In this document: positions 18,054-24,247 of the stretch, one piece after another | Numbering within the stretch: position 1 is the first letter of the stretch | Layout of the letters: each line of letters begins with the position of its first letter | Program-made: the position numbers and the translations under genes | Notes under the pieces: generated by a model | What the model was told of the DNA's origin: nothing | Database searches by the model: none | What the model saw: the letters and a program-made list of their open reading frames with translations, nothing else | From: Scardovia inopinata JCM 12537 | Lineage (GTDB): Bacteria > Actinomycetota > Actinomycetes > Actinomycetales > Bifidobacteriaceae | Assembly: GCF_001042695.1 (NCBI RefSeq) | Contig: NZ_AP012334.1 | Coordinates: 248,001 to 312,000 of the forward strand | Length of the DNA: 64,000 nucleotides | Reading direction: 5' to 3'

Positions 18054-18272
18054 ATGGCAAAAAATGATGTGATCGAGGTTGAAGGCCGGGTTGTTGAGGC
18101 CCTTCCTAATGCTATGTTTCGGGTAGAGCTCGAGAATAAACACATCGTGCTGGCTACTATTTCCGGGAAAATGCGGAAAAATTACATCCGTATTCTTCCT
18201 CAGGACCGTGTGGTGCTCGAAATGAGTCCCTACGATTTGACCCGTGGCCGTATTACCTATCGATACAAGTAA
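18054..18272 (+). CDS. infA: Translation initiation factor IF-1
   Basis: 72 residues, opening [19 protein letters not shown], with the S1-like OB fold and the conserved [18 protein letters not shown]-1 binds the 30S A-site during initiation. It heads the infA-rpmJ-rpsM-rpsK-rpoA-rplQ group. Confidence 0.98.
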
Positions 18273-18310: not shown

Positions 18311-18424
18311 ATGAAGGTTAGTCCCAGTGTCAAGCGGATCTGCGAGAAATGCCGCGTCATCCGCCGCCACGGCCGCGTCATGGTGATCTGTGAAAACCCG
18401 CGTCATAAGCAGCGTCAGGGCTAG
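18311..18424 (+). CDS. rpmJ: 50S ribosomal protein L36
   Basis: 37 residues, [20 protein letters not shown] and onward, ending in HKQRQG. Zinc ligands Cys11, Cys14, Cys27 and His32 are all present, so this is the zinc-binding form. AAAGGAAAGCC is the ribosome-binding site. It lies 38 bases after infA and 120 bases before rpsM. Confidence 0.97.
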
Positions 18425-18445
18425 CAGATACAGCGGCACAGTAAG

Positions 18446-18526
18446 GCGCCTAATCACAGCAGAAGCTGAACCCTAAGTACGGAGACTTAGGCCACATAAG
18501 TGGACGATTAGGTGCACGATCTCCGT
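18446..18526 (+). ncRNA. Structured mRNA leader of rpsM with candidate pseudoknot
   Basis: A 10-bp outer stem pairs GCGCCTAATC (18446-18455) with GATTAGGTGC (18506-18515), with one G-T wobble. It encloses a 7-bp hairpin (CCTAAGT 18472-18478 with ACTTAGG 18485-18491) stacked directly on a 4-bp hairpin (CCAC 18492-18495 with GTGG 18500-18503). The loop ACGGAG (18479-18484) is complementary to CTCCGT (18521-18526), just outside the outer stem and 18 bases before the rpsM ATG. This is a plausible translational operator for a ribosomal protein; the ligand is not shown. Confidence 0.6.
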
Positions 18527-18544
18527 AGAACAGAAGGAATCGCA

Positions 18545-18916
18545 ATGGCACGTCTTGCCGGAGTCGACATCCCCAATGAGAAGCGCATTGAAGTTGCCCT
18601 CACCTACATTTTTGGTGTGGGACGCACACGCGCTAAAGAAACCCTCGAAGCGACCGGTATCTCACCGGATATTCGCGTCAAGGATCTGACTGACGAACAG
18701 CTCATTCAGCTTCGTGATTACCTGGAAGGCAATTATAAGATTGAAGGTGATCTGCGCCGTGAAATCGATGCAGACATTCGCCGCAAGGTTCAGATCAACT
18801 GCTATCAAGGTATCCGCCATCGCAGGCATTTGCCTGTGCGTGGTCAGCGTACAAAAACCAACGCACGCACCCGTAAGGGTCCTAAGCGCACAGTTGCAGG
18901 TAAGAAGAAGGTTTAA
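18545..18916 (+). CDS. rpsM: 30S ribosomal protein S13
   Basis: 123 residues from the ATG at 18545, chosen because AGAAGGAA precedes it and [19 protein letters not shown] is the standard opening. A longer in-frame start at 18512 would extend into the structured leader. The helix-two-turn-helix motif and basic tail ([17 protein letters not shown]) are present. S13 contacts P-site tRNA and the large subunit. Confidence 0.97.
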
Positions 18917-18961: not shown

Positions 18962-19360
18962 ATGGCAGCTACAAAGCAGGCCGCGCGCAAGCCTCGCCGC
19001 AAGGACCGCAAGTCGGTACCGGTTGGCCAAGCGCACATCAAATCAACATTTAATAATACGATCATCTCCATCACTGATCCTTCAGGAGCCGTTGTTTCTT
19101 GGGCTTCCGGCGGTGATGTAGGTTTCAAGGGCTCCCGTAAGTCCACCCCTTACGCTGCTGGCATGGCTGCAGAAGCGGCTGCCCGTAAGGCACAGGAGCA
19201 TGGCGTTAAGAAGGTTGACGTATTCGTCAAGGGACCTGGTTCCGGCCGCGAGACCGCAATCCGTTCTCTTCAGTCTGCAGGACTTGAGGTTGGTTCTATT
19301 ACCGACCGCACCCCGCAGGCATTCAACGGTGTCCGCCCGCCTAAGCGTCGCCGCGTCTGA
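18962..19360 (+). CDS. rpsK: 30S ribosomal protein S11
   Basis: 132 residues. The conserved core reads [19 protein letters not shown] and the C-terminus carries [21 protein letters not shown]11 lines the mRNA exit region of the platform. rpoA follows after 76 bases; rpsD, which sits here in many bacteria, is absent. Confidence 0.98.
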
Positions 19361-19436
19361 AGCACTCAGACAAGAAATAACATCCAACCCGCATTGATTG
19401 GCAAGTGCACAGCCAATCTAGCTGAAAGGATACAAC

Positions 19437-20432
19437 GTGCTTATTGCACAGCGTCCGTCACTTACTGAGGAACAAGTTACTCCCCAGCGTTCGCGCTTTA
19501 CGATTGAGCCTTTGGAGCCCGGCTTTGGTTACACTTTGGGTAATTCCTTGCGCCGGACTCTCCTGAGTTCTATTCCGGGGGCAGCAGTGACATCGGTACG
19601 TATTTCCGGGGCCCTGCATGAGTTCACCACTCTGCCTGGGGTCAAGGAAGACGTTACTGAAATTCTTTTAAATATCAAAGAACTCGTGCTCACTTCTGAG
19701 TACGATGAGCCTGTTGTCATGTATCTGCGTAAAAGCGGCGAGGGAGAAGCCACAGCAGCTGACATTACTCCACCTGCTGGTGTAGTAATTGCCAACCCTG
19801 ATCTTCACATTGCTACCCTTGCCGAAGATGGAGAGCTCGAGATTGAGTTCACTGTTGAGCGTGGACGTGGCTACGTGCCGGCTCAGATGAACAAGCAGGA
19901 GGGCGATGAGATCGGTCGCATTCCTGTTGATTCCATTTATTCACCTGTGGTGAAAGTGAGCTACAAGGTGGAAGCAACCCGCGTGGAGCAGCGCACTGAT
20001 TTTGATAAGCTCATCGTTGATGTGGAAACAAAGCCGGCTATCACCCCCCGTGACGCCGTAGCTTCCGCCGGATCAACCCTGGTGGAGCTCTTCGGGCTTT
20101 TCCATGAGCTCAACAATCAGGCTGAAGGCGTAGAAGTTGGCCCTGCCCCGGTGACCGAAGAGGTCGATCCTCAGATGGAGATCCCTATCGAGGATCTTAA
20201 TCTGACTCAGCGGTCTTATAATTGCCTCAAGCGCGAAGGAATCCATACTATCGGCGAGCTGGTCAAGAGGTCGGAGCAGGACCTGCTTGACATTCGCAAT
20301 TTTGGTCAGAAGTCTATTGATGAGGTTAAAGATAAGCTCGCCAGCATGGGACTGTCTTTGAAGCAGTCGCCTCTGGGACTTGGCCAGATCGATCTTGACG
20401 ACAGCAATTTCTTCAGTCCTGAAGATTTGTAA
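19437..20432 (+). CDS. rpoA: DNA-directed RNA polymerase subunit alpha
   Basis: 331 residues, GTG start preceded by GAAAGGATACAAC. The N-terminal assembly domain includes [20 protein letters not shown]. The C-terminal domain (from about residue 255) has the helix-hairpin-helix pattern [20 protein letters not shown] and [16 protein letters not shown], which binds UP elements and activators. Alpha dimerises to nucleate polymerase assembly. Confidence 0.98.
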
Positions 20433-24161: not shown

Positions 24162-24247
24162 GGATGATTGTCCGAGCGGTCGAAGGAGCACGACTCGAAA
24201 TCGTGTGAGGCTCAATACCTCCGTGAGTTCGAATCTCACATCATCCG
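24162..24247 (+). tRNA. tRNA-Ser (CGA)
   Basis: The 86-nt cloverleaf has a 7-bp acceptor stem (GGATGAT with ATCATCC), a discriminator G at 24247, anticodon stem CACGA/TCGTG, and loop CTCGAAA with anticodon CGA at 24196-24198. The long variable arm GAGG...CCTC is typical of tRNA-Ser, and the T-arm is GTGAG/CTCAC with TTCGAAT. CCA is not encoded (CCT follows). It reads UCG. Confidence 0.96.

Follow-up and report, generated by a model that had tools for sequence, protein, structure and literature searches.

A pseudoknotted four-way junction upstream of rpsM, a probable control element for ribosomal protein synthesis in actinomycetes

Among the described systems, the leader RF00140 (Alpha_RBS; S4, gammaproteobacteria) resembles the element reported here in being a pseudoknotted leader of the same operon located at rpsM. 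The pseudoknot of the E. coli alpha operon comprises the ribosome binding site, whereas the knot of our element is located upstream of this site, where it closes a four-way junction. The ribosome binding site of rpsM is not included in the knot, which ends at 18526, while the Shine-Dalgarno (SD) sequence starts at 18534. Membership in RF00140 was rejected, since the best weak match reached 15.2 bits against a gathering score of 38 and covers 18508–18577, mostly outside the element.

The S4 leaders of Clostridia and Fusobacteriales (Eckert and Weinberg 2020, PMC7247131) are, like our element, candidates found by covariation, and they are located upstream of rpsM-rpsK-rpsD-rpoA-rplQ. They belong to other lineages, and the word pseudoknot is absent from the main text of that survey, whose Table 1 contains no actinobacterial rpsM leader and names neither S13 nor S11 among the ligands. 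RF03132, the L17-Actino-Proteobacteria leader, shares the actinobacterial gene cluster, but it is located upstream of rplQ and not of rpsM. It has no match in the window and was found in one of 24 relatives' loci scanned. This single match (L238:2876–2932, minus strand, upstream of rplQ) scores 68.4 bits, and the threshold was unreached in 20 loci of the order. The mycobacterial rpsO operator (S15; PMC8470358, PMC10931766) likewise carries a pseudoknot upstream of, and not over, the initiation site, where it is needed for repression. That operator concerns another gene and another protein and has been tested experimentally, whereas the rpsM element is known from sequence comparison.

In the part of the literature covered, the nearest prior sign of our element is the rpsM 5' UTR of M. 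tuberculosis, which a table of PMC3207917 lists as abundant and 216 nt long. In that study, this 5' UTR was set by visual inspection, with contiguous intergenic transcription counted as 5' UTR; sequence homology with the rpoA 5' UTR is stated, and the passages covered give no structure. A term search of the main text of PMC11109978 and PMC8632094 revealed no named actinobacterial rpsM leader. Nor was a description found in the consulted parts of PMC10931766, PMC8470358, PMC2864571, PMC3388012, and PMC8388888, with supplements and most subscription journals outside the search, so that an alignment of the motif may exist in a supplement or in unpublished form. A scan with Rfam 15 at gathering scores gave no match at the element in the window or in the loci of 24 relatives (25 sequences). 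The original prediction knew of no described actinobacterial element of this form, which is in good agreement with Rfam 15 and with the literature as far as searched. At gathering score, the window yields a single Rfam match, an ordinary tRNA gene at 24162–24247.

Architecture of the rpsM leader in Scardovia inopinata

The window, i.e., the whole stretch of 64,000 nucleotides from S. inopinata JCM 12537 that was analyzed, contains infA, rpmJ, rpsM, rpsK, rpoA, and rplQ in this order (Table 1). The gap between rpmJ and rpsM measures 120 nt and harbors the element. Therein, the outer stem P1 encloses the hairpins P2, P3, and P4, and a base-by-base check confirmed the resulting four-way junction and its closure by a pseudoknot between the P3 loop and a strand downstream of P1. 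The original prediction had placed an element with a 10-bp outer stem at 18446–18526, which proved real with exact coordinates, and the complementarity that it had seen between the 6-nt loop ACGGAG and a CTCCGT located between the outer stem and the SD of rpsM is likewise exact. Both hairpins it had described inside the outer stem are present (P3 and P4), but a third one, P2, had been missed; the length of P2 varies among relatives. The pseudoknot ends 18 nt ahead of the ATG at 18545, and in 20 relatives measured its 3' strand lies 18–26 nt ahead of the start codon. A model search revealed one confident copy of the element in the genome.

The region 18420–18560 folds at -46.7 kcal/mol with a z-score of -3.70, and 0 of 200 shuffled sequences folded equally well. 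Pseudoknots are outside the model of the folding program, which paired the CUCC strand with the SD instead.

Table 1. Genes and structural features of the rpsM locus in the window
Feature	Position	Strand	Sequence or remark	Basis
infA	18054–18272			
rpmJ	18311–18424			ORF
P1 outer stem, 5' strand	18446–18455	+	GCGCCTAATC; 10 bp	sequence
P1 outer stem, 3' strand	18506–18515	+	GATTAGGTGC; partner of 18446–18455	sequence
P2 hairpin	18457–18468	+	CAGC 18457–18460 / GCTG 18465–18468; 4 bp here	sequence, fold
P3 hairpin	18472–18491	+	CCTAAGT 18472–18478 / ACTTAGG 18485–18491; loop ACGGAG	sequence, fold
Pseudoknot 5' strand (P3 loop)	18479–18484	+	ACGGAG	sequence, covariation
P4 hairpin	18492–18503	+	CCAC 18492–18495 / GTGG 18500–18503; ATAA loop	sequence, fold
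Pseudoknot 3' strand	18521–18526	+	CTCCGT	exact reverse complement of P3 loop
SD of rpsM	18534–18539	+	AAGGAA; block conserved in family alignment A1	sequence
rpsM (S13), putative first controlled gene	18545–18916	+	homologue in 188/189 family genomes	ORF
rpsK (S11), putative second controlled gene	18962–19360	+		ORF
rpoA	19437–20432			ORF
rplQ	from 20510			ORF

Covariation and distribution

The closest named relatives of the window's genome are Bifidobacterium and Gardnerella. Within the family, rpsM has a homologue in all but one of the 189 genomes, and the leaders of 70 of them were read. From these, 40 leaders of similar length, with near-duplicates mostly dropped, were aligned by MAFFT without knowledge of the structure (alignment A1), and pairs were counted against the structure including the pseudoknot. 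Of 1236 helix cells, 96.7% are paired, compared with 24–38% when the partners are shifted by one to three columns, and changes on both sides occur at 19 of 31 pairs (113 such cells vs 28.3 in shuffles). The share of paired cells amounts to 99.3%, 98.1%, 98.2%, and 96.2% in P1, P2, P3, and P4, respectively, with changes on both sides at 7 of 10 pairs of P1 and also in P4. The pseudoknot pair 18482–18523 is formed in 40/40 leaders, as C-G (24), G-C (12), or U-A (4), and the outermost pair 18479–18526 in only 17/40. In genus g3 (L005, L007, L010, L035), a CCCCCG strand stands opposite CGGAG, as in L036, which leaves a one-base mismatch. The original prediction had named two findings that would speak against it: a lack of compensatory changes in the rpmJ-rpsM gap of Bifidobacteriaceae, and loss of the stem or of the partner strand in close species. 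The compensatory changes were found at the 19 pairs given above, and the element withstood this comparison, with the partner mismatch of genus g3 as the one departure.

At the level of the class, 100 leaders were compared (alignment A4). All of them are prior model matches that were fitted to a P1–P4 model without the pseudoknot; the alignment thus leans towards P1–P4. Of its 2970 cells, 93.2% are paired (34–47% in slid controls), with changes on both sides at 25 of 30 pairs. P1 is paired to 87.8% (changes on both sides at 10/10 pairs), P2 to 84.1%, P3 to 99.5% (5/6 pairs), and P4 to 96.8%, again with changes on both sides. A further alignment, A3, made use of 61 of 89 sources. All six pseudoknot pairs are intact in 98 of the 100 class leaders, and the sequence of the pseudoknot is near-invariant over the class. 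The two exceptions are L036, with one A-C mismatch, and L203, whose mismatches may stem from misalignment.

For 112 of 120 leaders, the changes were placed on an S13/S11 tree (eight were dropped because the S13 match was absent from the locus or too short). For pseudoknot pairs 2, 3, 4, and 6, parsimony demands 4/4, 5/8, 3/4, and 2/2 changes (left/right side), respectively. Since repeated changes are needed on both sides, the matched changes do not go back to one inherited event. An automatic pseudoknot finder turned out to be unspecific (185/188 real leaders vs 147/188 with shuffled loops); therefore, our pseudoknot counts rest on alignments and hand annotation. Taken as comparative evidence, these counts indicate that selection maintains both the P1–P4 junction and the P3-loop pseudoknot at rpsM over the class.

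The distribution was studied from the order to higher taxonomic levels. With a covariance model that lacks the pseudoknot (R1), 85 of the 297 genomes searched in the order were matched at a threshold of E 0.1. Among the 61 matches outside the family, 58 were examined, leaving out G217, G299, and G309; in 56 of them, the match falls into the rpmJ-rpsM gap, while L149 and L153 are spurious. A second covariance model (R2) matched 210 of 394 genomes of the class and 22 of 296 genomes drawn from the phylum. All 44 in-class loci inspected (L161–L204) have their match in the rpmJ-rpsM gap; six genomes occur twice among L095–L160, and several of L161–L204 duplicate genomes counted earlier. Two matches outside the class (E 0.031 and 0.044) were rejected, as their loci contain neither rpsM nor rpmJ. 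rpsK follows rpsM in the rpsM-bearing loci of order and class, with the exception of L167, which ends within rpsM.

Eighty named loci picked by S13 similarity were searched with R2 (filters off, E 0.05 or better). A match was obtained in 74, including Cellulomonas, Arthrobacter, Brevibacterium, Rhodococcus, Nocardia, Mycobacterium, Mycolicibacterium, and Actinomyces, and it ends at the rpsM start in 71 of the 80. The remaining three matches are Micromonospora and are partial or displaced. The weakest matches among the named loci, e.g., Lentzea (E 0.02–0.03), are judged by R2 score. No R2 match was found in six of the 80 loci: Micrococcus (L337), Microbacterium (L360 and L376), Corynebacterium (L377), Pontimonas (L381), and Saccharothrix (L384).

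We further picked 20 genomes among those listed as having no match, some of which lack a match to the narrower model R1 only. Applied to their rpsM leaders with filters off, R2 recovered the right place in 18/20 at E 0.033 or better; L243 reached E 0.27, and L244 was not found. The P3 hairpin and the pseudoknot are present in all 20, where the strands were picked by eye and then checked pair by pair, and six of these leaders form only five pseudoknot pairs. Among them are the new compensated pseudoknots GCAGTGG:CCACTGC, CCGAAGG:CCTTCGG, ACGAGGG:CCCTCGT, GCAGAGG:CCTCTGC, and CGGGGG:CCCCCG. This sample shows that the misses of the models presumably reflect divergence and not absence of the element. 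Outside the class, all 16 genomes searched possess rpsM and lack the element, R2 with filters off giving nothing better than E 0.43; their rpmJ-rpsM gap is short, as judged by eye. On this sample, the element is apparently specific to the class.

Function, ligand, and alternative explanations

The element combines two properties of ribosomal-protein leaders, a conserved RNA structure that covaries and a constant placement in the 5' leader of ribosomal protein genes. It is probably a cis-acting translational operator of the rpsM-rpsK mRNA, with S13 or S11 as the likeliest ligand. A terminator-like site was looked for in the leader, and none was found; we therefore rejected attenuation in favor of translational control as the likelier mode, and this finding together with the position of the element points to translation initiation as the control point. 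The best reading of the sequence data is thus a putative new ribosomal-protein leader that would act on the initiation of rpsM-rpsK translation. A ribosomal protein encoded in the operon, when in excess over free rRNA, would bind the knotted junction; the pseudoknot would thereby be stabilized, and the 30S subunit would be kept from productive loading, by steric block or by entrapment.

As to the ligand, the element regularly precedes rpsM and rpsK while rpsD is variable, and hence S13 and S11 are the constant candidates. Within the limited flanks, rpsD was found behind rpsK in 25 of 112 loci, and the element occurs whether or not rpsD is there. The original prediction had stated that rpsD is not part of the operon in the window, and indeed the gene next after rpsK, which ends at 19360, is rpoA, starting at 19437; in the window's genome, rpsD is located at G000:C1:744981 without a copy of the element and hence outside its control. 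In the family, rpsD (S4) stands apart from the operon behind a leader of another kind, which makes S13 or S11 the likeliest ligand, with S13 being encoded by the first gene; the argument is one of gene content. The caution with which the regulator had been predicted (S13, S11, or another protein) is supported by this separate rpsD leader, which is conserved by eye and has no match to the element in the 27 loci searched.

A leader that binds S4, like those of other alpha operons, and thereby exerts control over rpsM-rpsK in trans, also in genomes whose rpsD has been relocated, appears unlikely to us, although other rpsM-operon leaders (E. coli, Clostridia, Fusobacteriales) have S4 as known or assigned ligand and the 25 loci with rpsD after rpsK would fit. 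The pseudoknot helix 5'-ACGNAGG/CCUNCGU-3' also resembles the lower helix of 16S h18, near which S4 presumably binds. However, rpsD of the family stands behind another leader, as judged by eye, without an R2 match in the 27 loci searched, and one confident copy of the element exists in the window's genome. Furthermore, the variable base of the leader is G, C, or T, whereas the 16S reads ACGTAG in every match among those listed (145 of 189 genomes matched). The longest words common to leader and 16S are not unusual in 8/8 pairs either (words of equal or greater length in a fraction of 0.17 to 1.0 of shuffles; mononucleotide shuffles, with two of the eight 16S pieces comprising only about 600 bases). 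Mimicry of 16S h18 at the level of sequence thus found no support on either count.

A bistable switch, in which the CUCC strand pairs with either the P3 loop or the SD and the ligand selects the state, is doubtful as well. When the window is folded to minimum energy with the pseudoknot left out, CGAUCUCC pairs with GGAAUCG; the SD is paired in this way in 3/3 leaders of the window's genus (UCUCCG), and in the local fold of 46 of 68 class leaders with CCUCCG-type strands vs 24.0 expected on shuffling the strand, a count in which some strands (e.g., UCUGCG) were misplaced by the regular expression. Against this, the family as a whole shows such pairing in 7/40 leaders vs 5.7 expected, three of the seven belonging to the window's genus, and leaders with CCUGCG or CCUACG strands show it in 1/28, while the variable pseudoknot pair is formed in 40/40. 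Because the pseudoknot is kept where CCUGCG and CCUACG strands lose SD pairing, it is the pseudoknot that constitutes the conserved interaction. SD sequestration as the conserved function was rejected on the same counts; some lineages may have SD masking in addition. It is very unlikely that the structure between rpmJ and rpsM is a constitutive one that acts, without a protein ligand, in the stability or processing of the mRNA. The element does sit between two cistrons, and mRNA can be protected by stable structures, but its fixed place near the start codon, the conserved knot instead of a simple hairpin, the near-invariance of this knot over the class, and the finding of a single confident copy in the window's genome argue against this reading.

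Control of rpsM-rpsK by S13 or S11 can be set in a wider scenario, which we put forward tentatively, as one that could well prove wrong. S13, S11, or both would be autogenous repressors via the class-wide knotted junction, and an old S4-controlled alpha operon would have been split in actinomycetes into separately sensed pieces. The element would serve rpsM-rpsK, small hairpins would serve rpoA, the L17 leader would serve rplQ in some of them, and a relocated rpsD would have its own leader. With one element common to bifidobacteria, arthrobacters, nocardias, and mycobacteria, the question of the ligand is directly testable. Should it be S13 or S11, this would add a ribosomal protein to the ligands in Table 1 of the leader survey PMC7247131.

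Leaders of rpsD and rpoA

Within the window's family, rpsD was found in 38 of 41 genomes. Its leader is long and of different sequence, with blocks conserved by eye (26 of 30 loci with a readable start), and is a candidate S4 leader. No Rfam match was obtained at gathering score in 5 loci, and a copy of the element at rpsD was rejected, as R2 with filters off yielded 0 matches at E ≤ 1 in 27 of 30 rpsD loci. Blocks seen in L277–L304 are, e.g., AGCCCGTCAATGGGTCGGCGGC, GAAGCATTGGAGAGGCCGACTC, and GTTCAGATAACGACAGA.

That rpoA has a copy of the element as well was likewise rejected: in 12 operons searched by R2 with filters off, the rpsM copy was recovered in 12/12, and nothing else was better than E 0.085. 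The rpoA leader of the window gave no Rfam match at gathering score. It carries a hairpin, GATTGGC..GCCAATC at 19396–19402/19412–19418, whose loop is of a conserved GTGCAC type; on its flanks are ATCC at 19382–19385 and GGAT at 19428–19431, the latter at the SD (whole span 19382–19431). Comparable blocks and a stem varying on both sides were seen by eye in the rpoA leaders of 30 family loci with long flanks.

In many order and class loci outside the family, another small hairpin is located just before rpoA, with the loop TCAWATRGCGG and a varying complementary stem. It has no Rfam match in 24 loci. The sequence UAGCGG is also present in 16S near position 690, which we mention as a lead only. 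The hairpin was seen at 97 places, duplicates included, e.g., in L228 near 2152–2190 and in L236 near 1650–1690.
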